A DNA stretch of 64,000 bases from NCBI RefSeq assembly GCF_000967915.1, contig NC_022549.1:186001-250000 (forward strand), in the 5' to 3' direction. Shown here one piece after another: positions 40,962-61,031 of this stretch. Positions within the stretch are counted from its first letter, which is position 1. Each line of letters begins with the position of its first letter. A model generated the notes under the pieces. The model was not told the origin of the DNA and did not search any database. It saw nothing but the letters and a program-made list of their open reading frames with translations. A program made the position numbers and the translations under genes. Source of the DNA: Paracholeplasma brassicae. GTDB taxonomy: Bacteria; Bacillota_I; Bacilli_A; Acholeplasmatales; UBA5453.

Positions 40962-40977
40962 AGCCGTGTATTCAATA

Positions 40978-41125
40978 TGTATCGTATAATCAGCCTAATA
41001 TGGGGGCTAAGTTTCTACCGCGAGCCTATAACGTCGCGACTACGATATGAAAACCATTTTTTTATTTGTTTTCATATGTAGAAATGCCACCTATTTTACC
41101 AAAAATAGGGGCATTTTTCTTTTTT
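40978..41125 (+). promoter_or_regulatory. Purine riboswitch (guanine class) with terminator platform
   Basis: The aptamer spans about 40978-41049: P1 TATCGT/ACGATA, ATAATCAGCC ... GGGGGCTAAG, the conserved GTTTCTACCGCG, and GTCGCGACTACG. The C in GACTAC indicates guanine/hypoxanthine rather than adenine. A hairpin ATATGAAAAC/GTTTTCATAT (41045-41077) overlaps the 3' side of P1. A terminator (stem AAATGCC-a-CCTATTTT with AAAATAGG-GGCATTT, T-run to 41125) follows. The expected logic is off when purine is bound. It controls the purine permease downstream. Confidence 0.92.
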
Positions 41126-46106: not shown

Positions 46107-47408
46107 ATGATTGAAAAAACAAAATGCCTTCCTGATGGCAAACACGAAAGAAAAAGCCAAGAAGTAATTCACTATTTAGAAGCAGACTTTTTGTATTACC
46201 CAACCACAGACCTAAGATGCCCTGCTGGGGAATCTTGTGTGATCGATGGACAATACGTTAAAGTCGGTGAACTCATTGGAACAAGAAAAGGTGCGTTTTT
46301 TGAGCAACCAATCCATTCCACTGTGTCAGGTTATGTTGTAGGTACTGAAAAGAAGATTCACAGCAGTGGTCAAACCGTTGACTGTATGATTGTTCAAAAC
46401 GACAAGAAGTATGTTTTACATGAGTCTTGTGTGCCAAGAACTGACGAGGATATTGAACAACTAAGCAAGGAAGATTACATAAAAATCATTAAAGATTCTG
46501 GATTGTCCGGACTTGGTGGTTCAGGCTTTCCAACCTATGTAAAACTCCAAACCAAAGAAACCATCCACACGGTGGTGGCTAATGGGGTTGAATGTGAACC
46601 ACATCTAATCTCAGACTACAAGTTAATTCTTGATAAAGCCAAAGAAATCGTTGAAGGTTTAACACTTTCAATGAGAGCCTTAGGAGCGACTAAAGGGGTT
46701 ATTGCAGTAAAAGCAAAATACCCAGAATTAGCTGGTGTATTCGAATCACAATTTGCAGAATTTTCGAAGTTTGATTTAGAAGTTAAAAGAGTTGGTAACT
46801 ACTACCCAGCAGGTTGGGAAGTTGAAACCATTAAATCATCTACAGGTATTTCAGTACCACCGGGTGAATTAACTGCTAAGTATGGCGTTGTTGTGTTTAA
46901 CGTTGCAACCCTATATGGTATGTACCGTGCGATTCGTAGAAACATTCCAATCACTGAACGTTTCTTCTCAATCTCAGGTGATGGGATTAAAGAATCGAAG
47001 AACTTTAGAGTTCGTATTGGAACACCAGTTCGTGATTTAATCGAAATGTGTGGTGGATACACAGAAAATGATAAACCAAAAGCGGTCATCGTTGGTGGAC
47101 CAATGATGGGTAATTCACTACAAAATGACGATTTAATCGTCACGAAGACTTGCACAAGTTTAATCGTATTTGATGAAAACGTCGTGGAATCTGAACCTTG
47201 TATTCACTGTGCGTCTTGTGTGTATTCTTGTCCAGTGAATATTCAACCAGTTCAAATCATGAACGCTTATAAAGAACGCGATAAAGAAGCAGTTGAAGCG
47301 TTAGGTGTAAATAAATGTATTGAATGCGGTCTTTGCTCATTCACATGTCCTTCTAAGATTCATTTAACAGAAACCATGAGACAAGCAAAACGATTCATTA
47401 GAAAATAA
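46107..47408 (+). CDS. rnfC: Rnf complex subunit RnfC
   Basis: Peripheral Fe-S/flavin subunit of the ion-translocating ferredoxin:NAD+ oxidoreductase. The N-terminal barrel-like region contains PIHSTVSGYV, and the NADH/FMN domain has SGLGGSGFPTYVKL. Two C-terminal [4Fe-4S] ferredoxin motifs are CIHCASCVYSCP (about residue 365) and CIECGLCSFTCP (about residue 405). The 433-residue length fits clostridial RnfC. First gene of rnfCDG-X-EA-Y-B, and 21 bases after glyA. Confidence 0.95.
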   Translation: MIEKTKCLPDGKHERKSQEVIHYLEADFLYYPTTDLRCPAGESCVIDGQYVKVGELIGTRKGAFFEQPIHSTVSGYVVGTEKKIHSSGQTVDCMIVQNDKKYVLHESCVPRTDEDIEQLSKEDYIKIIKDSGLSGLGGSGFPTYVKLQTKETIHTVVANGVECEPHLISDYKLILDKAKEIVEGLTLSMRALGATKGVIAVKAKYPELAGVFESQFAEFSKFDLEVKRVGNYYPAGWEVETIKSSTGISVPPGELTAKYGVVVFNVATLYGMYRAIRRNIPITERFFSISGDGIKESKNFRVRIGTPVRDLIEMCGGYTENDKPKAVIVGGPMMGNSLQNDDLIVTKTCTSLIVFDENVVESEPCIHCASCVYSCPVNIQPVQIMNAYKERDKEAVEALGVNKCIECGLCSFTCPSKIHLTETMRQAKRFIRK

Positions 47409-47421
47409 GGGGTAAGATTAT

Positions 47422-48498
47422 ATGAACTATGCGAAACAGACAAGTCCATACATCCGCAAAGAAACCAGTGTAAAACGCATGATGGTTGACGTGTTAATTG
47501 CCTTACTACCAGTGGTGGTATTCGCAATTTACCGTTTTGGATGGGATGCGATTATCAGAATTTTATTATCCGTGGTCATTATGGTGGTGGCTGAAGCCAT
47601 CGGTATGATGATGCGTGTGATGGTTCATCCATCAGTTAAAGGGTTTAAAAACCGCTTTAAAGCACGCTTTGAAAAATTAACCATTAATAACGTCACAGCG
47701 CCATTAGTGAGTGCGATCATCTTTGCGATGATTATTCCTTCGACCTTAAACCTATATGTGGTTGCGGTTGGGGCATTATTTGGGATTGTGGTTGCTAAGT
47801 TATTCTTTGGTGGGTTAGGCTCGAACATCTTTAACCCAGCAGCGATTGGTCGTGTGTTTATTGGGCTTTCATTTGCGAGCCAATTTAAATACGCAGGTAT
47901 TGACGCTGCCGTAGGGGCAACCCCACTTGGTGCGGTAAAAGATGCGATGTTAAACATCCCGACCGTTTTACAAGATTACAAACTAATTGATTTATTCTTA
48001 GGTAACATTCCAGGGTCAATGGGTGAAATCAGTGCGATTTTAATTCTCGTTGGTGCGACTTACTTATTCATTAGAAAAGCAGCTGACTTTAGAGTGACCT
48101 TATCTATGGTGTTATCATTTAGCGTGATTATCTTTATCGCAGCGATTGCACAAGGATCTAAGAACTTAGTAGAAACGACATTATTCCATGTGCTTGGTGG
48201 TGGGCTATTATTTGGGGCAGTCTTCATGATTACAGACCCAGTAACTTCACCATACACAAGACCTGGTCGTTGGATTTATGGGTTAATGGTCGGTGTCATT
48301 GCCGCATTCATCCGTTTGTTCGGTGCCTACCCAGAAGGTGTTGCGTTTGCGATTATCATTTCAAACATGTTTGTGGCATTACTTGATTACTACAAGTGGT
48401 CAACAAATAAATATTCATGGAAGTTTATCATTGGCTATGTTATTAGCTTAGCGGCCTTAGGCCTAGTTGCATTTATTGGGATGGGAGGTTTAAACTAA
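47422..48498 (+). CDS. rnfD: Rnf complex subunit RnfD
   Basis: Membrane subunit of 358 residues with about nine helices, homologous to NqrB. Family motifs include FGGLGSNIFNPAAIGRVF and DPVTSPYTRPGRWIYG. The site for covalent FMN is normally SGATPL; here it reads VGATPLG (residues near 165), keeping the acceptor Thr but not the leading Ser/Thr. Overlaps rnfG by one base. Confidence 0.95.
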   Translation: MNYAKQTSPYIRKETSVKRMMVDVLIALLPVVVFAIYRFGWDAIIRILLSVVIMVVAEAIGMMMRVMVHPSVKGFKNRFKARFEKLTINNVTAPLVSAIIFAMIIPSTLNLYVVAVGALFGIVVAKLFFGGLGSNIFNPAAIGRVFIGLSFASQFKYAGIDAAVGATPLGAVKDAMLNIPTVLQDYKLIDLFLGNIPGSMGEISAILILVGATYLFIRKAADFRVTLSMVLSFSVIIFIAAIAQGSKNLVETTLFHVLGGGLLFGAVFMITDPVTSPYTRPGRWIYGLMVGVIAAFIRLFGAYPEGVAFAIIISNMFVALLDYYKWSTNKYSWKFIIGYVISLAALGLVAFIGMGGLN

Positions 48499-49022
48499 TG
48501 AAAATATTTAAAACAGCGTTAGTTCTAACATTGGTTGGAATCGCGTGTGGCATTTTGATTGGTTTTTCCAACCAAATTACCGCACCAATCATTGCGAAAA
48601 ACAAGTTAGAAGCCGAATTAAAGGCGTATAAAGAAATATTTCCAACCATTGATGACCAAGAAGTTCTTGAGTACACATCAGACATCGTTTCAAAGGTGAT
48701 TGTGGCTAAAGAAGGTGGCAATGTGATTGGTTACTTAGTGATGGGTAAACAAGCCAACGGCTTTGGTTACATCGACATGATTGTTGGTTTTGATAAAGAT
48801 GGGACAATCGTTGGTATTGAAATCGTCGATTTCAATCAAACACCATCGTATCAAGCAGGTATTCTATCACGTACACTACAATTTGAAGGGACTGCTTTAG
48901 CGGATATTCCTGCAAAAGGACCACAAATTGATGCCAGTGTCGGTGGTACCTCTCAAGGGTTTAACACAGTAAAACTAATCGTAGCGGCAGCCGTTAGCGC
49001 GTATAATGAGGCGGTGAAATAA
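48498..49022 (+). CDS. rnfG: Rnf complex subunit RnfG (FMN-binding domain, unusual motif)
   Basis: A 174-residue protein with an N-terminal membrane helix and an extracytoplasmic FMN_bind domain (GYIDMIVGFDKDGTIVGIEI). The flavinylation motif expected as [ST]GATx[ST] reads VGGTSQG, and the ETPGLG segment reads QTPSYQ. The presumed FMN-accepting Thr is kept but its surroundings are not. Overlaps its neighbours by one base on each side, so it is tightly coupled in the rnf operon. Confidence 0.88.
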   Translation: MKIFKTALVLTLVGIACGILIGFSNQITAPIIAKNKLEAELKAYKEIFPTIDDQEVLEYTSDIVSKVIVAKEGGNVIGYLVMGKQANGFGYIDMIVGFDKDGTIVGIEIVDFNQTPSYQAGILSRTLQFEGTALADIPAKGPQIDASVGGTSQGFNTVKLIVAAAVSAYNEAVK

Positions 49023-50401
49023 TGAGTAGAGAAAATAGAGGATTACTAATCAACTTTGGTATACTACTGGTTGTTTCAATCAGCTTTATCCTAGGTTATG
49101 GTATTTTATATAAGAATTTAGATAAGAAAGACGCTTTAAAAGAATACCAAGTGTATTTTAGTGAAGCAACAGACTTTACTGAAGTGAGTGTAGATTCAAC
49201 GATTATTTCTAAAAAAGTTGAAATCAAAAAAGGATCTGATGTGATTGGTTACTACTTTGTTGGTAGCGAATACGCAGAAGGCATTCCTGGACACGATGGT
49301 AAAGACGAATTAAGAATTAGTGTGGTCATTGATAAATCAGGTAAGTTCATTAATATTCAAACGGAATATTCAGAACATACTGAAAGTTTTGTCAGCAAAT
49401 TAAACACATTCTATAATAACGCTAAAAACCAAAACATCGCCGATTTTAAAAACATCGATGGTGAGGCAGGGGCTTCGGCTTATTCGATGCCAGTGGTAGA
49501 AAAGGTCTTAACTGAGATTGCGAAAAACTTAGAGATCACAGTTAAACCAATGGTACCAAAAGACCCATACGTCTTAGTCTTTGGTGATTACGAAAGAAAA
49601 GAATTAGACAACGAATTTGAAGCAGATGATGTGTTATTATCAAGAGAATTAATTTATAACGACTTAAACCAAGTCATTGGTATCGCTTATGTGGGTACGG
49701 GTATCGCTAATGGCATTCCTTACCATGACGGACCGGCAAAACTTGACTTATTGGTCGGTTTATCAATTGATGGTAAGATTTTAGGCACAACCATCTTGGA
49801 ACACGAGCACACACAATCATTCGTAGACAAGATTTTACCTTACTTCACTAACTTAGTTGATGTCTCAATTGATGGCTTTGAAACAGTGGATTTAGTTGCG
49901 GGTGCAAGTGAGTTCACAATGCCTGTGGTTCAATCCATCTTAGCGAAGGTAAAAGAACGCTTTGAAGGGTTTGATGTCTATGCACACGTATCTAATGGGT
50001 ACGTCACGATTGAAGATGATGTCACATTTGTCGCAACGGATAAAGTTCTTGAAAAGAAAGTGCTTAAAGATTCTGAAGGGATCGTAACTGGGTATGTTTA
50101 TATCGGTACTGATGGTATCACGGGCATTCCAGGACACGACGGTAAAGACTATATCAAACTGGCTGTTGGTGTTGATTTAACAGGGAACATTACGGGTGTG
50201 TATTTAATTGAAAGTGCCCATACCGAAGGCTTTGTTAAACGTATTATTCCATATTTAAATACCTTGGAAGGGCAAGCGATTGCTTCCTACAAAACAACTT
50301 ACAATAATGGAACTACAGAAGTCGATGGATTCGCTAATGCAAGTGAGTATACGAAACCAGTAATCATCAGTATTTTAAATGCAATTAAGGGGGTGGCATA
50401 A
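49022..50401 (+). CDS. Membrane-anchored protein with three FMN-binding-like repeats
   Basis: A 459-residue protein with one N-terminal membrane helix (about 10-30) and three tandem extracytoplasmic repeats near 74-170, 216-316 and 355-456. Each repeat holds a GIPxHDG motif, a strand pair like that of RnfG, an H[ET]xxSF/HTEGF motif, and a motif at the flavinylation position: AGASAYSMPVV, AGASEFTMPVV, NASEYTKPVI. Ser replaces the usual flavin-accepting Thr. It lies between rnfG and rnfE with start-stop overlap to rnfG, where standard rnf operons have no gene. Likely an accessory electron carrier or structural duplicate of RnfG. Confidence 0.8.
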   Translation: MSRENRGLLINFGILLVVSISFILGYGILYKNLDKKDALKEYQVYFSEATDFTEVSVDSTIISKKVEIKKGSDVIGYYFVGSEYAEGIPGHDGKDELRISVVIDKSGKFINIQTEYSEHTESFVSKLNTFYNNAKNQNIADFKNIDGEAGASAYSMPVVEKVLTEIAKNLEITVKPMVPKDPYVLVFGDYERKELDNEFEADDVLLSRELIYNDLNQVIGIAYVGTGIANGIPYHDGPAKLDLLVGLSIDGKILGTTILEHEHTQSFVDKILPYFTNLVDVSIDGFETVDLVAGASEFTMPVVQSILAKVKERFEGFDVYAHVSNGYVTIEDDVTFVATDKVLEKKVLKDSEGIVTGYVYIGTDGITGIPGHDGKDYIKLAVGVDLTGNITGVYLIESAHTEGFVKRIIPYLNTLEGQAIASYKTTYNNGTTEVDGFANASEYTKPVIISILNAIKGVA

Positions 50402-50402
50402 C

Positions 50403-51083
50403 ATGTCTGAAACCGTAACTTTAAAGAAAAAAGACATCTTCATGACGGGTGTGTTAAAAGAAAATGCAACCTTCAAAATGATGTTAGGTATGTGTCCTGC
50501 CCTTGCGGTAACGAGTAGTTTTGAATCCGCATTTGGGATGGGCATTTTAGTTATCATCATTCTATCGTTTAGTAATGGGATTATTTCATTACTTAGAAAA
50601 TTAATTCCATCAGACGTGCGTATTCCTGCCTACATCGTTATTATTGCAACACTTGTAACGGCGTTAAAGATGTTTGTTGATGCGTACGCACCAGCGTTAG
50701 CATCAAGCTTAGGTGTGTTTATTGCGCTAATCGCGGTTAACTGTATTGTTTTAGGTAGAGCAGAATCGTTCGCTTCTAAGAATACCGTATTAAATTCAAT
50801 CGTTGATGGTCTTGGTAGTGCCACTGGGTTTACCTTATCGATCTCATTAATTGGTTTAGTTAGAGAAGTCTTAGGTAAGGGTAGTTTCTCATTTGGTGTG
50901 TTATTACCATTGCCATTTGAATTTACATGGCAAATTTTCCCAAGTGAATACGCTTGGAGCGTTCTTGTATCACCTCCGGGTGCTTTCTTAGTGATTGGTA
51001 TTTTATTAGCCGGGTTTACCGCTTATGGCCAACACATGGAACTTAAGAAGAAGTTAAATAAAGCGAAAGCGAGGGCTAAATAA
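50403..51083 (+). CDS. rnfE: Rnf complex subunit RnfE
   Basis: A 226-residue membrane protein with six helices, homologous to NqrD. Seen: KMMLGMCPALAVTSSFESAFGMG (with the conserved membrane cysteine in GMCPALA), LIAVNCIVLGRAESFASKN, and a LVSPPGAFLVIGIL segment. RnfA and RnfE form an antiparallel pair holding a membrane Fe-S site between CxxN-like cysteines. The start ATG 50403 directly follows the stop of the triple-repeat gene. Confidence 0.95.
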   Translation: MSETVTLKKKDIFMTGVLKENATFKMMLGMCPALAVTSSFESAFGMGILVIIILSFSNGIISLLRKLIPSDVRIPAYIVIIATLVTALKMFVDAYAPALASSLGVFIALIAVNCIVLGRAESFASKNTVLNSIVDGLGSATGFTLSISLIGLVREVLGKGSFSFGVLLPLPFEFTWQIFPSEYAWSVLVSPPGAFLVIGILLAGFTAYGQHMELKKKLNKAKARAK

Positions 51084-51664
51084 TGACCTTAGAAGTATTC
51101 TTTGTTTCACTGATTAGCTCGATGCTAATTCAAAACGTTATCTTAATGAAGTTCTTAGGGATTTGTTCATTCTTAGGTGTTTCTAAAAAGATGAGTAACG
51201 TTTGGGGTATGAGTGCGGCGGTTATGTTTGTTATGATGATCTCAACCGCAATTACTTACCCACTATACTTTTATGTATTAGAACCACTCAATGTTCAATA
51301 CATTGATACGATTGCGTTTATCTTAGTTATCGCAGCAGTGGTTCAATTAGTCGAAATGATTTTAAAGAAATACGTGGAAAGTTTATATCGTGGTTTAGGG
51401 GTTTTCTTACCACTGATTACAACGAACTGTGCGGTCTTAGGGGTTGCACAAACCAATATTTCAAGTGCGAACGGGTATTTAGATGCCTTAACCATCACCT
51501 TTGGGACAGCCCTAGGGTTTGGTTTAATCATCATTACATTTAGTGCGATCCGTATTCGTCTAGACTCAGCTAACGTGCCAAAAGCGTTTAAAGGTATGCC
51601 AATTGCGCTTGTGGTTGCTGGCTTAATGTCACTCGCATTCTTAGGTTTACAAGGGTTAATTTAA
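51083..51664 (+). CDS. rnfA: Rnf complex subunit RnfA
   Basis: A 193-residue membrane protein with six helices, homologous to NqrE. LISSMLIQNVILMKFLGICSF near the N-terminus (here quoted as LIQNVILMKFLGICSF) and LPLITTNCAVLGVA in the centre carry the conserved cysteines shared with RnfE. It overlaps rnfE by one base and the next small gene by one base. Confidence 0.95.
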   Translation: MTLEVFFVSLISSMLIQNVILMKFLGICSFLGVSKKMSNVWGMSAAVMFVMMISTAITYPLYFYVLEPLNVQYIDTIAFILVIAAVVQLVEMILKKYVESLYRGLGVFLPLITTNCAVLGVAQTNISSANGYLDALTITFGTALGFGLIIITFSAIRIRLDSANVPKAFKGMPIALVVAGLMSLAFLGLQGLI

Positions 51665-51873
51665 TGCCTAGCGAACTAATCGGTATTTTGATACTAGCAG
51701 TACTAGTATTCTTCTTTATCGTGATTACTTTAGTCAATAAAAAAACCCCAGTGCCACAAAGTTGTGAACATGCGTATCACGAAGCACAAGCTTCTGGGTG
51801 CGATGCGTGTGCAATTAGTGGTGGTTGTACAATAAGAGAAGCACTAGATAAAATAAAGGAGATCGGCAAATAA
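51664..51873 (+). CDS. Small cysteine-rich membrane protein in the rnf operon
   Basis: A 69-residue protein with one N-terminal membrane helix (about 5-25) and a short cytosolic-type tail containing four cysteines at 34, 46, 49 and 55 (C-x11-C-x2-C-x5-C, within CDACAISGGC). The spacing could bind an Fe-S cluster or zinc. It is locked between rnfA and rnfB by start-stop overlaps on both sides, so it is surely translated with the complex. I do not know it as a standard Rnf subunit. Small FeoB-associated Cys-rich proteins look superficially similar. Confidence 0.8.
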   Translation: MPSELIGILILAVLVFFFIVITLVNKKTPVPQSCEHAYHEAQASGCDACAISGGCTIREALDKIKEIGK

Positions 51874-52184
51874 TGTTAAATGCAACTTTAGTTATCGGTG
51901 GTCTAGGATTATTATTAGGACTAGGCTTAGCCTTAGCGGCTAAATACCTAGAAGTATTTGAAGATGAACGTATTGCAGAAGTAGAAAAGATGTTACCAAA
52001 CTACAACTGTGGTGCGTGTGGGACACCTGGGTGTCATGCGTTTGCTACTGAAATTGTGACCGGTAAAGCGGGTAAGATTTCAAGATGTAAACCAGGAAAA
52101 CCAGACAAACATTATAACCCAATTTTAGAGTACTTAAAGAACCATCCAAATCCAGATGGCACACCAGTAGACATCAAATTATAA
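51873..52184 (+). CDS. rnfB: Short RnfB (membrane helix and single Fe-S domain only)
   Basis: A 103-residue protein matching only the N-terminal part of RnfB. It has one membrane helix (about 4-23) and the four-cysteine cluster domain NCGACGTPGC ... C (Cys 46, 49, 54, 72). Usual RnfB proteins are about 190-330 residues and carry two or more ferredoxin-type [4Fe-4S] clusters after this domain; none is present. The stop is followed by a clear terminator and no continuation in another frame is apparent, so this looks like a genuine short form rather than a frameshift. Confidence 0.88.
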   Translation: MLNATLVIGGLGLLLGLGLALAAKYLEVFEDERIAEVEKMLPNYNCGACGTPGCHAFATEIVTGKAGKISRCKPGKPDKHYNPILEYLKNHPNPDGTPVDIKL

Positions 52185-52220: not shown

Positions 52221-52371
52221 ACGCTTTAGAGGGCACATCAAACATGGATTTTCAAACCATCTTAAGTATCTTTATTTACACATAATTGGGCATTGTAAGT
52301 GTTTTTAATGAAAACTGGGGTGTTTTTGATTATTATATATGATATAATACGAAATGGAAATGAGCGATAAT

Positions 52372-53598
52372 ATGAAAAAAATAATGGGAATGATTTTAGG
52401 ACTTGCACTACTTTCAGGTGCGTTCTTTAAAGTAAATGTTTATGCAAGTGATGAGCCTTTGGTAAGGTCTATGACCGATTATATGTACACGAGTATTACC
52501 GTGACACTATATAACGCAACCATTGAAGATTTAAATGAGATTGAAAAAATCTATCAAGAGTACACAATTATATCAAATAATTTCAATTTTAAGGACGACG
52601 ATTTTGATGAGGTTAATGACTACTTAAGTAACCCTTTTTATGGACAAACAAGTATTTATGACGTCAATCAGAAAGCGTTTGATGAACCAGTCGTCGTTAG
52701 TCAAAAATTGTTTGACTTACTCTTAGAAGCTAAAGCGCTCTATTTAGAGACCAATGGCTATTTTGATGTCTCGATTGGTAGGGCCGTTGATTTAATCAAA
52801 CAAGGCATTACCTCTTTTGGTTACGATGAGATGCCTAAGGCAGATTTTGATCAATTAATGAATGACATTGATGCGCTTGGTCGTGTGACCTTTAGTGAAG
52901 TCATACTAAATGAAACAAATCTTACGGTTCGATTTACGAATGAAAATGTGAAACTTGATCTAGGGGCACTTGCGAAAGGCTATGCCACACAAAAGGCAGT
53001 TGACTATTTAGAAGAACAAGGCATTACAACTTATATGATTAACGCAGGAAGTTCAAATATTGCGGTAGGCAAACACCCGGAAAATAGAAACTGGCGTTTA
53101 GGCTTAAGACACCCGGTGAATCCGATGTTAGGCTTATACGCGGTGGTTTCAAATACCGATAAGGCGATTGTTACCTCAGGGAATTTTGAACAATTCTTCA
53201 CTTATGATGAGATTAGATACCATCACATCATCTCACCTAAGGATTACTTACCAAAACAGTACTATCACGCAGTAACACTCATCGGTGATGACTCGGGTCA
53301 TTTGGATGGGTTATCAACCGCTATCTTTAATATGCCTTTTGATGAGGCAAAGGCGGTCGTTGAAAATTTAGGCATTGAAGCAATCTTTTTTATGTACGAT
53401 GGTAAGATTAATACGATGCTTGAGGATACTGAAGTCGAGCTTAGGGTAGAAGAAGAAACCGAATCAAGACCAAACGACGTTGAGTCGATTGCCTACATTC
53501 TAGGTGGGGTCGTGATTGTTGGTGGTATCATTATCGTTTTACTATCAATCAACGAAAAGAAAAAAGGTGCTAATTATGACAAAGAAAAAGAAGAATGA
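52372..53598 (+). CDS. apbE: FAD:protein FMN transferase (ApbE-like), membrane-anchored
   Basis: Transfers FMN from FAD onto Thr/Ser of Rnf/Nqr and other extracytoplasmic flavoproteins. A signal sequence (KIMGMILGLALLSGAFF) is followed by the ApbE domain with LFDLLLEAKALYLETNGYFD, VKLDLGALAKGYATQKAVDYL (21 residues, core DLGALAKGYA) and INAGSSNIAVG. The C-terminus adds a second membrane helix (YILGGVVIVGGIIIVLLSI), unlike the plain lipoprotein form. The start ATG 52372 begins the signal peptide; two earlier in-frame ATGs are less well placed. It leads a three-gene unit next to the rnf operon. Confidence 0.92.
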   Translation: MKKIMGMILGLALLSGAFFKVNVYASDEPLVRSMTDYMYTSITVTLYNATIEDLNEIEKIYQEYTIISNNFNFKDDDFDEVNDYLSNPFYGQTSIYDVNQKAFDEPVVVSQKLFDLLLEAKALYLETNGYFDVSIGRAVDLIKQGITSFGYDEMPKADFDQLMNDIDALGRVTFSEVILNETNLTVRFTNENVKLDLGALAKGYATQKAVDYLEEQGITTYMINAGSSNIAVGKHPENRNWRLGLRHPVNPMLGLYAVVSNTDKAIVTSGNFEQFFTYDEIRYHHIISPKDYLPKQYYHAVTLIGDDSGHLDGLSTAIFNMPFDEAKAVVENLGIEAIFFMYDGKINTMLEDTEVELRVEEETESRPNDVESIAYILGGVVIVGGIIIVLLSINEKKKGANYDKEKEE

Positions 53599-54058
53599 TT
53601 TTTTGTTGATTGGCGTTGCCTTAATTCTACTCGGAGGCCTGTTAATTTTTAGTATCGCAACTAGAGTTAAAGGCGAAATTGCTTATGTGAAGGTTTCGAA
53701 TCAAGCGGTGATGCAAATCTCATTAAAGGATGGGTCATACGTAGCAAATAACCCATCAAACGTGATTGTTTTAACCGAAAAACCTGAAATTGATGGGTTT
53801 GACTTAACCACTTCAAGCGAGGTAATTCTACTCGAGTTTGGAAAAACAATTGTGGTGTATCAAAACCTCTTTTATGTCAGAGGGGCACTTGGCGTGGTTG
53901 AAATTCAGTATAAAGAAAATAAAATCAGAGTTAGTAAGGAAAAGAGTCCTTATAATATTTGTAGTAGACAAGGTTATTCGGATGTCGCACCGATCGTTTG
54001 TTTACCTAATTTTATCACCATAGAATTTAGTAACGATACGGATGTGATCATTGGATGA
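53576..54058 (+). CDS. NusG domain II-containing membrane protein
   Basis: 160 residues with an N-terminal membrane helix (about 7-26) and one extracytoplasmic beta domain. The C-terminal part contains SPYNICSRQGYSD and VCLPNFITIEF, a pattern I associate with NusG_II-type proteins often found beside ApbE and Rnf-like genes. Two cysteines flank that segment. ATG 53576 lies inside the end of apbE, and the gene overlaps the next by four bases. Its role in flavin or redox trafficking is inferred from neighbours. Confidence 0.75.
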   Translation: MTKKKKNDFLLIGVALILLGGLLIFSIATRVKGEIAYVKVSNQAVMQISLKDGSYVANNPSNVIVLTEKPEIDGFDLTTSSEVILLEFGKTIVVYQNLFYVRGALGVVEIQYKENKIRVSKEKSPYNICSRQGYSDVAPIVCLPNFITIEFSNDTDVIIG

Positions 54059-54561
54059 GTATAAAAAAATTGGTGCTGCTTGCAATCTTTACAGCGATTG
54101 CCGTGGTCGTAAATATCTTAGAAATGTATATTCCGATTATTCCTGGAACGGCATTCAAAATTGGGTTTGCGAATATCATTACACTCATCGTGGTTTTTGT
54201 ATATTCTCCAAAAGAAGCAATCATTGTGGGCTTAATGCGCATCTTTGTTGCAGGTCTTCTTGGGCCATCAGGGTTTGGACCAACCTTTATGCTTAGCTTA
54301 ACGGGTGGGGTGTTTTCAATCCTTACGATTGTCATATTTAGAATGCTTGATAAATTTTCACTAATTGGTGTTTCTGTGTTAGGCTCAATCATGCACGTCT
54401 TTGGTCAAATTCTTGCCGCAAGGTTTATTTTTGCGGAAGTTGTGACATTTTATGCACCGATCATGCTGTTTCTAAGTATTCCTGCGGGCATATTTACAGG
54501 GATTTTAGCAAATAAGTTTTTAGCCATTTCAAAAGAGTGGTTTGTGGAAAAGAAATATTAA
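54055..54561 (+). CDS. Gx transporter family protein (ECF S-component-like)
   Basis: A 168-residue integral membrane protein with five to six helices. LAIFTAIAVVVNILEMYIP, FKIGFANIITLI, RIFVAGLLGPSGFGPTFML and LSLTGGVFS match the Gx transporter/heptaprenyl-diphosphate-synthase-component-I-like family. Such proteins commonly co-occur with ApbE, and by analogy with Listeria extracellular electron transfer may move FAD or flavin across the membrane for ApbE. ATGA overlap with the preceding gene. Confidence 0.8.
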   Translation: MSIKKLVLLAIFTAIAVVVNILEMYIPIIPGTAFKIGFANIITLIVVFVYSPKEAIIVGLMRIFVAGLLGPSGFGPTFMLSLTGGVFSILTIVIFRMLDKFSLIGVSVLGSIMHVFGQILAARFIFAEVVTFYAPIMLFLSIPAGIFTGILANKFLAISKEWFVEKKY

Positions 54562-56162: not shown

Positions 56163-56274
56163 GTATCCCTATGAGGCATCACCATTCAATTGTAGCGAGT
56201 GAACCTGGTCAGGTCTTGACTGAAGCAGCCATAAGCTTTGTTATGATGTGAGTGGTGATGCTTGATAGGGATAC
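56163..56274 (+). ncRNA. ffs: Signal recognition particle RNA (small, 4.5S-type)
   Basis: The invariant core GGTCAGGTCTTGACTGAAGC followed by AGCC is at about 56207-56230, containing the Ffh-binding asymmetric loop and apical region. The 5' end GTATCCCTAT, AGGCATCACCA pairs with the 3' end TGGTGATGCTT, ATAGGGATAC, giving one long hairpin of about 112 bases without an Alu domain. It may be processed from the tadA transcript or use a promoter within tadA. The classic GGAA-type tetraloop is replaced here by a TTGA-like loop. Confidence 0.93.
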
Positions 56275-56291
56275 AATAATCAAATAGATAG

Positions 56292-56315
56292 AGAACCTTT
56301 AGGGTTCTTTTTTTC
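56292..56315 (+). terminator. Intrinsic terminator after the SRP RNA
   Basis: AGAACC / GGTTCT stem and seven T, 18 bases after the RNA. Confidence 0.8.
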
Positions 56316-56489: not shown

Positions 56490-57404
56490 ATGAATGAAAA
56501 AATGCCAAGCCACTTAGCGGTTTTAAACAATCGTAATTTGGTCATTATGATTGGTGCGCTATTGGTTATTTTACTTGGGGCGACCTTTATCTTTGGGGCC
56601 TATAGTTTGTTAATCGCAGGGGTTGCGATTGTCTTTAGTGGGTGCGTTGAGTTAATATTTGCGAAAACGAGAAAAAAAGGTCTCGATTATAGCATATTAA
56701 TCACACCTCTTATTTTTGCGTTAACGATGCCACCATCGGTCCCACTTTGGGTGGTTGCGATCGGTGCGAGCTTCGGGACTTTTTTTGCAAAAAGTTTATT
56801 TGGTGGTTTGGGTAAAAACATCTTTAACCCAGCCATGGTCGGTTATATTTTTGTTACAATCTCGTTTCCAAGGTATTTAAACACACAGTGGTTAAACCCA
56901 AAAACCGATGTGATTGGGAGTGTGACCCCATTAATTGGTTTAAATGGTGGTAATCTTAGTGAATCTTATATGGATTTATTGTTGGGTGTTGTGCCTGGAT
57001 CACTAGGGGAGACGTTTCGTATTGGTATTCTAATTATAGGGCTTCTCTTAGTCGTTCTAAAAATTGTGGACTGGCGTATTCCGGTCTCAATTCTAGGTAC
57101 GGTATTTATCGTTAATTTGATTGGAAATCAGTTGAATGAAACCTATTTTAGTGACCCGGTCGCATCTTTACTAGTCGGTAGTGTGCTTTTCGGTAGTTTC
57201 TTTGTCGCAAGTGACCCAGTATCGATGCCGGTTTCTAACTGGGCGAAAGTAATTTATGGCATTGGGATTGCGGCAATCATCTTAATTATTCGTGGTAACC
57301 CTGGCGCATACCCAGCCGGCATGGCGTTTTCTGTGGTGATTATGAATGCGTTTAGTCCGTTAATTGATTCATACTTTATTAAAGAAGCGGGTGAGCTTGT
57401 ATGA
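56490..57404 (+). CDS. NqrB/RnfD-like membrane subunit
   Basis: A 304-residue membrane protein with about eight or nine helices, related to RnfD and NqrB. FGGLGKNIFNPAMVGYIFV and ASDPVSMPVSNWAKVIYGIG are family segments. It is shorter than NqrB (about 410). The FMN site, usually SGATPL, reads GSVTPLIG. First gene of a five-gene set whose order B-C-D-E-F is that of nqr, but no nqrA precedes it. Preceding gap holds the SRP RNA, its terminator and this promoter. Confidence 0.88.
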   Translation: MNEKMPSHLAVLNNRNLVIMIGALLVILLGATFIFGAYSLLIAGVAIVFSGCVELIFAKTRKKGLDYSILITPLIFALTMPPSVPLWVVAIGASFGTFFAKSLFGGLGKNIFNPAMVGYIFVTISFPRYLNTQWLNPKTDVIGSVTPLIGLNGGNLSESYMDLLLGVVPGSLGETFRIGILIIGLLLVVLKIVDWRIPVSILGTVFIVNLIGNQLNETYFSDPVASLLVGSVLFGSFFVASDPVSMPVSNWAKVIYGIGIAAIILIIRGNPGAYPAGMAFSVVIMNAFSPLIDSYFIKEAGELV

Positions 57405-57994
57405 GACAATACATCAACATGTTAGTGTTTGTTGTGATTTTGGGGTCCGTGGTTTCTTTCTTACTTGTTGGGGCGGATTTGCTGACCAAAGACCGAATCG
57501 CAAGAAATGACGAAGCGTTATTAAAGAGTTCGATTTTAGATGCTTATGACATCAGTTATAGTTTTAATACGGTGTTTGAACGTTTTGATGAAACGGTTGA
57601 AGAAGTGGTTATTGAAGACACAACGTTTTATATTGATAAAGAAACAAACCGTGTGTCCTACATTTTCAAAGGTTCCGGGGTTTGGGGGCCAATCGAAGCG
57701 ATTATGACGCTTGAGGCGGATTTTAAAACAATCGTTTCAATTTCAATTTTAGCGCAAGAAGAAACACCTGGTCTTGGTGGTGTGTTGGCTGAGGCTTGGT
57801 ATTTAGAAAAATACAGTGGGACTGTACTTTCTGATCAAAGTCCCTACATTATTATCAGACATGGGAATGAGGATAATCTACCAAATGAAGTCGATGCGAT
57901 TACAGGCGGAACAAGAACCTCTGAAGCTTTTATGAAGATGGTTAATGAAACCTACCCGATGTATAAGACGTTATTTGAAAGTAGAGGTAATTAA
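57401..57994 (+). CDS. NqrC/RnfG-like flavinylated subunit
   Basis: 197 residues with an N-terminal membrane helix and an extracytoplasmic FMN_bind domain. GSGVWGPIEAIMTLE and the EETPGLGG motif are present, and the flavinylation site reads DAITGGTRTS, close to the consensus [ST]GATx[ST] with Gly for Ala. It therefore probably carries covalent FMN placed by the ApbE protein at 52.4 kb. ATGA-type overlap with the preceding gene. Confidence 0.9.
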   Translation: MRQYINMLVFVVILGSVVSFLLVGADLLTKDRIARNDEALLKSSILDAYDISYSFNTVFERFDETVEEVVIEDTTFYIDKETNRVSYIFKGSGVWGPIEAIMTLEADFKTIVSISILAQEETPGLGGVLAEAWYLEKYSGTVLSDQSPYIIIRHGNEDNLPNEVDAITGGTRTSEAFMKMVNETYPMYKTLFESRGN

Positions 57995-57995
57995 G

Positions 57996-58622
57996 ATGAA
58001 ATGGATTCGTATTAAATACACTAAAACCTATAACCTCTTAAAGGACGGGCTTGCCACAAGTAATCCAATTGTGATTGCCGTCTTAGGGATTTGTTCCTCA
58101 CTTGCGGTATCAAACAAGGTTGAAAACGCGATCGCGATGGGTCTAGGTGTGACCTTTGTTGTGATGGCCTCAAGCATGCTCATTTCAAGTATGAGAAGTA
58201 TTATTCCAGCCAAAGTTCGAATGGTGACTTACATGGTGGTCATTTCGACGTTTGTGATTATGTTTCAAATGTTTCTAGATGCGTACTTTCCAACGATTGC
58301 CAAAAGCTTAGCGGCTTACGTCGGTTTGATCATCACCAATTGTATTGTGATGGGTAGAGCTGAGGCGTTTGCGGTTAAAAACCCAGTCAAGTATTCCATA
58401 GTTGATGGGTTTGCTTCAGGTATGGGTTATATGTTCATACTGGTTGTTGTTGCAATCATCAGAGAAGCCTTAGCGTTTGGAACCATCTTAAACATGAGGG
58501 TCATGCCTTTAAGTTTTACGAATTGGTCTGTCATGGCCTTAGCGCCTGGTGGGTTCTTTGTGATGGCGCTCTTCATTTGGGGCATTCGAGAATGGCTTAA
58601 GTATTACGAAAGTGAGGTGTAA
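57996..58622 (+). CDS. NqrD/RnfE-like membrane subunit
   Basis: 208-residue membrane protein with six helices. Seen: NPIVIAVLGICSSLAVSNKVENA with the conserved helix cysteine (LGICSSLA), and GLIITNCIVMGRAEAFAVKN. Homologous to RnfE at 50.4 kb but clearly diverged, so it is a second complex rather than a recent duplicate. The start ATG 57996 follows the NqrC-like stop by one base. Confidence 0.93.
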   Translation: MKWIRIKYTKTYNLLKDGLATSNPIVIAVLGICSSLAVSNKVENAIAMGLGVTFVVMASSMLISSMRSIIPAKVRMVTYMVVISTFVIMFQMFLDAYFPTIAKSLAAYVGLIITNCIVMGRAEAFAVKNPVKYSIVDGFASGMGYMFILVVVAIIREALAFGTILNMRVMPLSFTNWSVMALAPGGFFVMALFIWGIREWLKYYESEV

Positions 58623-58625
58623 TTT

Positions 58626-59207
58626 GTGAGTAATCTAATTGAACTTTTTGTTGCAACGATATTAAATCACAACATTGCACTGGTCTACATTTTAGGGATG
58701 TGTCCATTAATTGCTATTTCGACGAACGTGAAAAATGCCAAAGGGATGGGGATTGCGGTTGTTTTGGTTGTTACCTTAACGGCAATGATCAACTACCCGA
58801 TTTATCAATTATTAAAACAAACCGAAACAACGAGTTTAGCACTGTTGGTTTTCATTATTACGATTGCGGCAACCGTGCAAGTCTTAGAGATGTTAATGGA
58901 TAAGTATTTACCTAAACTCTATAACGCGTTTGGTATTTATTTACCACTAATTACCGTAAACTGTGTGGTCTTAGCGGTATCATTGTTCTTTGTTAACCGT
59001 ACGTATAATTTTGCGGAAACCACGGTGTTTTCGTTTGGATCGAGCGTTGGTTGGATGCTAGCGATCGTTTTAGTTGCTGGCATTCGAGAAAAAATGGCGA
59101 AGCACAGTGATGTACCAAGAGGTTTAAAAGGCAAAGGGATTGTCTTTGTCATCTTGGGCATCTTAGCGTTAGCGTTTATTGGATTTACTGGCTTAGCTAG
59201 TATATAA
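58626..59207 (+). CDS. NqrE/RnfA-like membrane subunit
   Basis: 193-residue membrane protein with six helices. NIALVYILGMCPLIAISTNV near the N-terminus and LPLITVNCVVLAVS in the middle hold the conserved cysteines. The GTG start at 58626 is set by GAGGTG at 58614-58619. Partner of the NqrD-like subunit. Confidence 0.93.
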   Translation: MSNLIELFVATILNHNIALVYILGMCPLIAISTNVKNAKGMGIAVVLVVTLTAMINYPIYQLLKQTETTSLALLVFIITIAATVQVLEMLMDKYLPKLYNAFGIYLPLITVNCVVLAVSLFFVNRTYNFAETTVFSFGSSVGWMLAIVLVAGIREKMAKHSDVPRGLKGKGIVFVILGILALAFIGFTGLASI

Positions 59208-59219
59208 GGAGGATATTCT

Positions 59220-60296
59220 ATGAATCCGTTTGTACCGATTATATTGATTGGTGGTTTAATACTCATTACCCTCTTTTTAATTGTCATTGATAAACTACTT
59301 GGTGGTGGCAAAGAAAAGATGTTACTTGTCAATGAGGATACCATCATACCTGTAAAAAATGAAGATACGTTATTAAATACGTTATCGAATCAAAAAATCT
59401 ACATTCCTTCAGCGTGCGGAGGAAAAGCGACGTGTGGGTTTTGTAAGTTTCGACTCATTGAAGGTGGTGGTGAGGTTAAACCAACCGAACTACCATTTCT
59501 ATCCAAAGAAGAAAGAGATTTAGGCATTCGTTTGTCTTGCCAAGTAAAAGTCAAGGACGACATGAAAATTGAAATCCCAAAGGAGTTACTGCACGCGAAG
59601 GCTTACCAAACGAAAGTCGTTGAAATCATTGAGCAAACCTATGACATCAAATTGGTTCGGTTTAAATTAATTGACCCGGACAAAATGGAATTTAAACCGG
59701 GTCAATACGCACAAATTAAAGTCCCCGGCATTGATGTGATTCGGGCTTACTCAATCGCATCTAACCCAAAAGACACATCAGAAATCGAGTTGATTATTAG
59801 ACAAGTGCCTAACGGTAAAGCAACAACGTTTGTCCATAAAGCCTTACAAGTAGGCGATAAAATCACACTGACGGGGCCCTATGGTGATTTTTATTTAAGA
59901 GACAGTGGTAGAGAAATGATTTGTATCGCTGGTGGCTCAGGTAAAGCACCAATTAGAAGTATCCTATATTACTTAAAAGACCGCGGCATGACGCGTAAAG
60001 TCACTTATTTCTTTGGGGCGAAATCCAAAAGAGATCTCTATATGACCGAAGAATTCGAACAGTTAATGACTGAATTTCCAAACTTTACTTACGTGCCAGC
60101 TCTATCAGAACCGCTTGAAGAAGACAATTGGAAGGGTGAGGTTGGTTTAATTACCGACGTTGTTGATAGACACACCGATGATCTAAGTGAAGCAGAAGCC
60201 TATTTGTGCGGCTCACCAGGGATGATTAACGCCTGTAACAAAGTCTTAAGTAAACACAAAATTAAAGAACACAACGTTTTCTTTGATAAGTTTTAA
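59220..60296 (+). CDS. NqrF-like NADH dehydrogenase subunit (2Fe-2S plus FAD)
   Basis: 358 residues: an N-terminal membrane helix (about 5-26), a plant-type [2Fe-2S] domain with cysteines 66, 72, 75 and 107 (SACGGKATCGFC, LSCQV), then a ferredoxin-reductase module. The latter has FAD motif RAYSIASNP, NAD-binding AGGSGKAPIRS and the C-terminal CGSPGM. This is the NADH-oxidising subunit of Na+-NQR, which distinguishes this set from an Rnf complex. Strong AAGGAGG site. A terminator follows. Confidence 0.94.
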   Translation: MNPFVPIILIGGLILITLFLIVIDKLLGGGKEKMLLVNEDTIIPVKNEDTLLNTLSNQKIYIPSACGGKATCGFCKFRLIEGGGEVKPTELPFLSKEERDLGIRLSCQVKVKDDMKIEIPKELLHAKAYQTKVVEIIEQTYDIKLVRFKLIDPDKMEFKPGQYAQIKVPGIDVIRAYSIASNPKDTSEIELIIRQVPNGKATTFVHKALQVGDKITLTGPYGDFYLRDSGREMICIAGGSGKAPIRSILYYLKDRGMTRKVTYFFGAKSKRDLYMTEEFEQLMTEFPNFTYVPALSEPLEEDNWKGEVGLITDVVDRHTDDLSEAEAYLCGSPGMINACNKVLSKHKIKEHNVFFDKF

Positions 60297-60310
60297 ATGA
60301 AATTTGACGA

Positions 60311-60344
60311 AATCAGTGGGCAATATCGCTCACTGATTTTTTTA
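60311..60344 (+). terminator. Intrinsic terminator of the Nqr-like operon
   Basis: AATCAGTG / CACTGATT stem and T-run. Confidence 0.87.
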
Positions 60345-60416: not shown

Positions 60417-61031
60417 ATGAAATTACAATATCATGTATTTAAAACGTTAAAAGAACCAGTGGAAACTCAAGACTTAGGTGAACGTAGTGTGGAGGTTCAT
60501 AGCATGAACCAAACACCTTACTTAGCAAAATACGCGTCAAAAGGTCAATTTGCTGTTTGGACATCCGATGGAAAGGAATACAAATTACTGATTGAAGATG
60601 GCTACTATGAAGTCATGAAAGAATTATACGATAAAAAAATCAACAAAGTATGGATATCATTCTACGAAGAAGCTGATAAGGTTCGAAGTGGGTTAATGTA
60701 TAAAATCGTGTTACCGATGATCGCACTTGCGATGTTGGTGGCGGTATTATTTTCAACCATTCCAGCGTTACAACAATTCCAAAGCGTGGCACTTATTGCC
60801 ATACTTGCGGTGATTTTAGTTGCGAACATTTTACAAACGAATTTGATGAAAAAGAAAATTGAACAAGCCAGAGCAAACTCAATTACTGAGATTAAACGCA
60901 TTCGTGGAAAAGAACGTTTTGAAGAAATACTAGAAGCGCAAGCGAAGTATTACGATACTTACTTTAATACCGAAGTGGTTGAAGAAGTAAAAGAAGACAT
61001 AGACAATCAGGATTCTAATTCTGAAAAATAA
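60417..61031 (+). CDS. Hypothetical membrane protein, 204 residues
   Basis: I do not recognise it. A soluble N-terminal domain of about 95 residues is followed by two adjacent membrane helices (about 98-116 and 124-142). The C-terminal tail is charged and probably helical or coiled-coil, ending in an acidic stretch. A GGAGG site precedes ATG 60417 at rather long spacing. It lies between a terminator and transketolase and may be co-transcribed with the latter (19-base gap). Confidence 0.72.
   Translation: MKLQYHVFKTLKEPVETQDLGERSVEVHSMNQTPYLAKYASKGQFAVWTSDGKEYKLLIEDGYYEVMKELYDKKINKVWISFYEEADKVRSGLMYKIVLPMIALAMLVAVLFSTIPALQQFQSVALIAILAVILVANILQTNLMKKKIEQARANSITEIKRIRGKERFEEILEAQAKYYDTYFNTEVVEEVKEDIDNQDSNSEK

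Follow-up and report, generated by a model that had tools for sequence, protein, structure and literature searches.

An nqrBCDEF operon without nqrA in Paracholeplasma brassicae and uneven cofactor loss in the Nqr and Rnf complexes of its relatives

The subject of this study is an operon of five genes, nqrB-C-D-E-F, at 56490-60296 on the plus strand of a 64,000-nucleotide stretch of Paracholeplasma brassicae NC_022549.1 (the window); the genome is complete at 99% and consists of a single contig of 1,877,792 bases. The operon is real, and the absence of NqrA from such operons is already known. In a number of related genomes, the return half of Nqr is lost, the outward half of Rnf is lost and domains carrying flavin mononucleotide (FMN) are multiplied; this is a new pattern, absent from the open-access papers searched. 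It suggests that Nqr and, in some of these bacteria, Rnf have become devices that work in one direction and export electrons. Judged from its sequence, the window operon somewhat more likely than not encodes an NADH (reduced nicotinamide adenine dinucleotide) dehydrogenase that feeds extracytosolic flavins and not quinone. In relatives of the Acholeplasma type, electrons quite probably leave at NqrC; we hold the claim for the window less firmly because the cofactors of its return path may still bind.

The operon and the missing NqrA

The five genes overlap or are closely spaced, and Pfam assigns their products to PF03116, PF04205, PF02508 (twice) and Fer2+FAD_binding_6+NAD_binding_1, which bears out the gene order of the original prediction (Table 1). 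The genuine NqrF that it named is also there, with a 2Fe-2S domain, a domain for flavin adenine dinucleotide (FAD) and an NAD domain, scoring 286.8 bits against TIGR01941, just below the cut-off of 295. The label "short NqrB-like" for the first gene is correct, since its 304-residue product passes the cut-off of the RnfD model (209.7 bits against 207.05) and is far from that of the NqrB model (164 against 350). Its alignment begins at residue 122 of Vibrio NqrB, so that the Vibrio N-terminal stretch is absent. No RnfB or RnfC subunit was found among the open reading frames of the operon. The terminator-like hairpins at both ends, together with the signal recognition particle (SRP) RNA gene before the first hairpin, indicate that the five genes are a unit of their own. 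The 20 relatives fetched all have the five genes side by side and in the same B-C-D-E-F order; thus, the operon is not a chance arrangement.

NqrA was predicted to be missing and is: PF05896 has no match in the complete P. brassicae genome, and TIGR01936 stays below its cut-off in all 50 genomes from which loci were taken. Window RnfC matches the NqrA model weakly (26 bits). The common menaquinone and ubiquinone routes require UbiA. A UbiA-type quinone prenyltransferase above cut-off was found in none of 61 genomes (P. brassicae and 60 relatives), while 14/14 control genomes had one; P. brassicae itself yielded a single 20-bit fragment with an internal stop, below cut-off. Cytochrome bd is likewise absent from all 61. 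Neither an nqrA gene elsewhere nor a quinone pathway, which together would have overturned the original prediction, thus came to light. Its premise that NqrA and NqrB together form the quinone site needs updating: a 2025 review lists ubiquinone under NqrB and gives NqrA neither cofactors nor an assigned direct function (PMC12174285). The absence of NqrA alone is therefore weak evidence, and the missing UbiA is the stronger evidence of the two.

Cofactor losses in Nqr and Rnf

NqrF matches occur in 23 of the 61 genomes, all with open frames, and in 24/295 genomes of a phylum sample at a stricter E-value. All 23 Nqr-bearing genomes contain ApbE, and 22 have RnfC above cut-off; the completeness of the remaining genome is 82%. 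Named genomes, scanned with a profile, gave at least 531 NqrF relatives, and the best 80 of these were kept and sorted by their neighbourhoods into three kinds. The class names are our own and follow the best NqrF match and the presence of an A subunit. MYC comprises Mycoplasmatota and their kin, without A and with no A-like gene near NqrB; SPI comprises spirochaetes, Ilyobacter and others, also without A; seven rows were left unassigned (X). HYB comprises seven loci with an A-like protein before B, from Petrocella, Tissierellales, two Omnitrophota, Armatimonadetes, Anammoxibacter and one uncultured organism (L081, L094, L108, L122, L126, L127 and L131). This HYB "A" is an RnfC/NqrA INTERMEDIATE of about 500 residues (381 in one locus), with both RnfC-type 4Fe-4S motifs in 7/7. 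For two of these proteins, the score is 242-252 bits with the RnfC model and 140-150 bits across nearly the whole NqrA model, and Pfam finds RnfC_N, Complex1_51K and 4Fe-4S domains in the one searched. A subunit of this kind beside nqrBCDEF was also seen in L144 and L147.

Near-duplicates (L063, L071, L073, L088, L115, L027, plus L036 and L042) and truncated or fused frames (L096, L098, L100, L103, L114, L119, L123, L128, L132, L133, L137, L138, L141) were dropped before counting; the cysteine counts include near-duplicates and exclude L098, L100, L103, L132, L137, L138 and L141. The tree of NqrD and NqrE (70 rows) was computed without every second spirochaete-type row, and its rooting is weak, with three Rnf rows only and several long branches. 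In this tree, MYC is one clade (Shimodaira-Hasegawa-like approximate likelihood ratio support 99) that lies within the HYB rows. The approximately unbiased test rejects one common origin for the NqrA-less rows as a whole (p-AU 0.0001, 55/68 rows, X_L107 and NQR_L168 omitted). Thus, the A subunit was lost in the MYC lineage separately from the spirochaetes.

In Na+-NQR, electrons pass outward via NqrD/E to NqrC and come back via the FMN and riboflavin of NqrB (PMC10643135, PMC12174285). The outward half is conserved throughout the MYC class. Both cysteines of NqrD are kept in 49/49 members, the four [2Fe-2S] cysteines of NqrF in 53/53, and Cys113 of NqrE in 52/52, with Cys26 in 51/52 (one gap). 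All MYC rows listed have the NqrC FMN motif, searched as a regular expression, except L074, L076 and L087. The FMN site of NqrB behaves differently. Among NqrB sequences of at least 255 residues, a loose rule finds an intact motif in 22/39 non-redundant MYC members against 46/49 others (decayed or deleted in 17/39 against 3/49), and the strict pattern Dxx[ST]xAT in 8/39 against 41/49. The aligned FMN threonine itself is absent from 11/39 MYC members against 1/49 others, several times by deletion of the whole loop. At least five changes are needed on the D+E tree to explain the losses. An NqrB with the loop deleted (L088) is still predicted to fold as NqrB/RnfD, as its structure model (predicted local distance difference test score, pLDDT, 84.5; predicted template modelling score, pTM, 0.82) has RnfD and NqrB chains as best PDB matches. 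The return path is removed by the loss of NqrA and, in many relatives, by that of the NqrB FMN as well. Two other loci differ in their own ways: L086 has NqrF split over two frames (171 and 166 residues) and was excluded, and L168, a Pseudooceanicola plasmid Nqr, is an independent variant with NqrA, a 260-residue NqrB without FMN motif and a nearby cytochrome c3-family gene.

The NqrC subunit has 197 residues in the window and 354 to 847 in some relatives. In the Acholeplasma lineage, an enlarged NqrC, mostly with two to five FMN motifs, occurs in 7/39 tree rows and in G028: there are two motifs in L035, three in L040, four in L038, L042, L043, L093 and G028, and five in L095. A further match in L093 was judged chance, and the 847-residue NqrC of L037 has one match to the pattern plus two TGVT-type motifs. 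Pfam separates four FMN_bind stretches in L043, three in L038, two in L035 and one each in L037 and L040. Six of the seven multi-FMN rows have no intact NqrB FMN motif; in the seventh, L035, we think that the DPATFAT match on which intactness solely depends is due to chance. Multi-FMN proteins have been proposed to carry electrons over long distances, and one of them, SaFMN3, reacts with O2 when reduced (PMC10339131). The computed masses of the L043 subunits are 72.3 (C), 40.0 (F), 25.1 (D), 21.5 (E) and 34.8 kDa (B). The membrane NADH oxidase of A. laidlawii, said to have been described by Jinks & Matz in 1976 and by Reinards et al. in 1981, is reportedly a flavin iron-sulfur enzyme of about 65, 40 and 19 kDa, which we take as a lead and not as evidence.

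Some Rnf complexes show the mirror image of this loss. RnfC is above cut-off in 49 of the 61 genomes, and 26 relative loci were read. In 18 of them, and in the window, RnfB and all four cluster cysteines of RnfE/RnfA are kept. In the other eight (G022, G028, G030, G032, G042, G046, G050 and G052; loci L172 for G032, L175 for G042, and L178-L183), the four [2Fe-2S] cysteines are gone at the aligned positions and RnfB is absent from the locus, with RnfC and RnfD intact: the two 4Fe-4S motifs of RnfC and the FMN threonine and riboflavin aspartate of RnfD are present in 8/8. Across the 49 RnfC genomes, the RnfB motif PF04060 is missing genome-wide in exactly these eight, whereas 41 have it. A search of the eight with PF02508 gave no further RnfE/A pair that is complete; G042 and G046 hold two weak copies only and are without NqrD/E. 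The altered RnfE/RnfA are still recognisable (L172 42.8/32.3 bits, L175 48.4/69.7 bits; cut-offs 213 and 229). Six of these eight genomes also carry Nqr, with an enlarged NqrC in 6/6; five of the six have no credible NqrB FMN motif, and L035/G052 is ambiguous.

Electron flow and competing explanations

We suggest that the product of the window operon is an NADH dehydrogenase with five subunits, a member of the Rnf/Nqr superfamily from which the subunit for cytosolic output has been lost and which probably runs mainly in one direction. Electrons from NADH would pass through FAD and the [2Fe-2S] cluster of NqrF to the putative intramembrane [2Fe-2S] cluster of NqrD/E. From there they would reach the FMN bound covalently to NqrC on the outer side and then either flavin domains outside the cell or an acceptor that diffuses, with O2, ferric iron or another oxidant as candidates. 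All these cofactors are assigned by motif only. NqrB would remain as a structural partner and perhaps an ion path, and ApbE from the adjoining rnf cluster, needed to flavinylate NqrC/RnfG/RnfD/NqrB, would attach the FMNs. If one electron and one Na+ were exported together, the process would be electroneutral and a Na+ gradient could nevertheless arise. The direction of flow, the acceptor and Na+ coupling, if there is any, are all inferred here. The genome does contain the combination by which flavin-based extracytosolic electron transfer is recognised, namely ApbE with an FMN-bearing extracytosolic domain. The extracytoplasmic acceptor, one of the outlets offered originally, also gains support from the FMN domains added to NqrC and the FMN sites lost from NqrB in relatives, while nothing was found in favour of ferredoxin or flavodoxin.

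For the Acholeplasma type, it can be speculated that a U-shaped circuit has been cut in two. Nqr would form the outward limb (NqrF, the D/E cluster and multi-FMN NqrC) and Rnf the other (RnfC, RnfD and multi-FMN proteins), and a shared external flavin relay for NADH electrons would amount to a quinone-free, cytochrome-free membrane respiration. The window species would then represent an early stage at which only NqrA is lost. We consider this joint reading slightly less likely than not.

Several observations weigh against outward flow only. The riboflavin-binding aspartate of NqrB (Vibrio D346, PMC10643135), mapped by alignment, is kept in 35/39 MYC members and is Glu in 4/39; it persists in 9/11 of those without the FMN threonine, and the return half is thus not wholly erased. 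The window NqrB retains both Thr146 and Asp242, and the window NqrC has a single FMN; some residual inward flow may occur in the window complex, because its motif, though relaxed, still has the FMN threonine. The FMN site is kept in 28/30 spirochaete-type NqrA-less operons, so one-way flow does not follow from a missing A in every case. When relatedness is taken into account, the loss of the NqrB FMN does not correlate significantly with a multi-FMN NqrC (three independent pairs). An extracytosolic terminal reductase that could serve as acceptor was not found in the window genome: the ten matches to PF00890 (fumarate/urocanate reductase type) are all short, N-terminal and of Rossmann type, hence no FrdA-like partner, and PF04205 occurs in NqrC, RnfG and the triple-FMN protein only.

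The retained window residues and the intact spirochaete-type sites would also suit a full return path, in which electrons go out to NqrC and come back via the FMN and riboflavin of NqrB to a cytosolic acceptor, possibly with another protein docking in place of NqrA. We find this unlikely, as close relatives have repeatedly lost the FMN site and yet keep the operon, and the MYC group has no A-like gene near NqrB. Rather less credence is due to a complex that is still an NADH:quinone reductase, with NqrA dispensable and quinones scavenged from the medium binding to NqrB. It would fit the placing of ubiquinone under NqrB and an NqrA without cofactor (PMC12174285), the largely kept riboflavin aspartate and the known use of exogenous quinone by a non-producer (PMC10746273). 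However, UbiA and quinol oxidase are absent from all 61 genomes, which leaves no onward route found for the quinol; the FMN that links NqrC to riboflavin is gone in many relatives, and the NqrB of 304 residues is without the Vibrio N-terminal stretch.

The co-occurrence of complementary halves, with Nqr in 6/8 half-Rnf genomes, could be taken for a split transhydrogenase, in which the Nqr half sends electrons out and the Rnf half returns them to NAD+ via shared external FMN proteins, connecting two nucleotide pools and pumping ions. This is very improbable: the Rnf half stands alone in G042 and G046 (2/8), which are without NqrF and NqrD/E, and the window Rnf is not halved. That the operon is a decaying relict under relaxed selection is harder still to believe. 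The decay of the NqrB motif and the patchy presence in 23/61 genomes point that way, but the cofactor residues of the outward half show little or no variation across 49-53 sequences, 23/23 NqrF matches have open frames, and NqrC is gaining domains.

Related systems and neighbouring genes

The operon resembles Na+-NQR of Vibrio, Bacteroides and Ruegeria in the order of subunits B-F, the domains of NqrF, the cysteines of NqrD/E and the FMN motif of NqrC. Unlike nqrABCDEF, it comes without NqrA and without quinone synthesis, its NqrB is about 110 residues shorter, and the NqrB FMN motif is relaxed, or lost in relatives. Rnf (rnfCDGEAB), one copy of which is also in the window, shares the homologous core; the nqr operon, however, has NqrF in place of RnfB and no RnfC-like subunit. 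NqrA-less NqrBCDEF has been described in Pseudothermotoga, where the acceptor was called unknown (PMC4148951), in Clostridium ultunense, where it was compared with the nqr cluster of Alkaliphilus (PMC5924567), and in 'Ca. Izimaplasma' ZiA1, citing A. palmae (PMC6256511). Gene set and order are the same, with Rnf co-present where reported. We compare these operons by description only, and the parts of the papers used do not mention NqrB FMN loss, NqrC multiplication or half-Rnf. No assigned function for the NqrA-less Nqr of Acholeplasma was found in the open-access literature searched.

One-way transfer from NAD(P)H to extracytosolic FMN has been proposed for two-subunit RNF/NQR-like systems (Meheust et al. 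2021, PMC8238504). In those, NqrB/RnfD is fused to an NAD domain and NqrD/E and NqrF are absent, whereas in the window NqrF, NqrD/E and NqrC are retained and NqrB is unfused; the Acholeplasma half-Rnf is closer to them than the window Nqr is. Tandem covalent-FMN domains are known from SaFMN3 and CbFMN4, which are soluble stand-alone proteins, while in the Acholeplasma type they belong to NqrC itself (PMC10339131).

The site of Na+ crossing is disputed between NqrB gated by its FMN (Hau et al. 2023) and RnfA/E (Kumar et al. 2025). Natural complexes without the NqrB FMN, and Rnf without the A/E cluster, are separated halves in which this question is directly testable. They are also candidates for membrane NADH oxidation in quinone-less Acholeplasma. 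The HYB "A" subunits, with their two 4Fe-4S motifs, resemble a missing intermediate between RnfC and NqrA; this suggests that the gain of NqrF preceded the loss of the RnfC clusters, and did not follow it, as was proposed in PMC4014512.

Table 1. Features of the window around the nqr operon.
Feature	Position	Strand	Remarks
rnf cluster	46107..52184	+	about 10 kb upstream of the nqr operon; starts: rnfC 46107, rnfD 47422, rnfG 48498, rnfE 50403, rnfA 51083
triple-FMN protein	49022-50401	+	between rnfG and rnfE; membrane-anchored; some three weak repeats for FMN binding, with motifs of GAS/NAS type
short rnfB	51873-52184	+	103 residues; single PF04060 motif
apbE (FMN transferase)	52354..53598	+	sole copy in genome
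NusG_II-domain protein and Gx/ECF-S-like membrane protein	53576..54561	+	accompany apbE; by Pfam; same order in relatives
SRP RNA gene	56173-56267		just upstream of the nqr operon
terminator-like hairpin	56290..56310	+	between the SRP RNA gene and nqrB; consensus scan
nqrB-like	56490..57404	+	304 residues; PF03116 only; FMN-threonine column Thr146 in degenerate DVIGSVT; riboflavin-Asp equivalent Asp242
nqrC-like	57401..57994	+	197 residues; single FMN_bind domain, motif DAITGGTRT
nqrD-like	57996..58622	+	intramembrane [2Fe-2S] cysteines present
nqrE-like	58626..59207	+	GTG start; 193 residues; Cys26 and Cys113
nqrF	59220..60296	+	358 residues; one N-terminal membrane helix; [2Fe-2S] Cys66/72/75/107; FAD and NAD domains
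terminator-like hairpin	60309..60340	+	13 pairs; directly 3' of nqrF; consensus scan

The Rnf set lies at the distance originally given; the word "full" applied to it needs a caveat on account of the small RnfB, although 94-123 residues is the usual size in relatives that possess RnfB. Multi-FMN proteins occupy the same position between rnfG and rnfE in relatives too. The gene after the nqr operon (60417-61031) encodes a protein of 204 residues that probably has two membrane helices and matches no family with confidence; some relatives have homologues of it behind tadA, close to their rnf cluster. Most spirochaete-type operons without NqrA have, after nqrF, a gene of about 150 codons (L164, 7367-7819), whose product has no Pfam/NCBIfam match. 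A purine riboswitch lies at 40962-41062 of the window, 5' of a xanthine/uracil permease gene.

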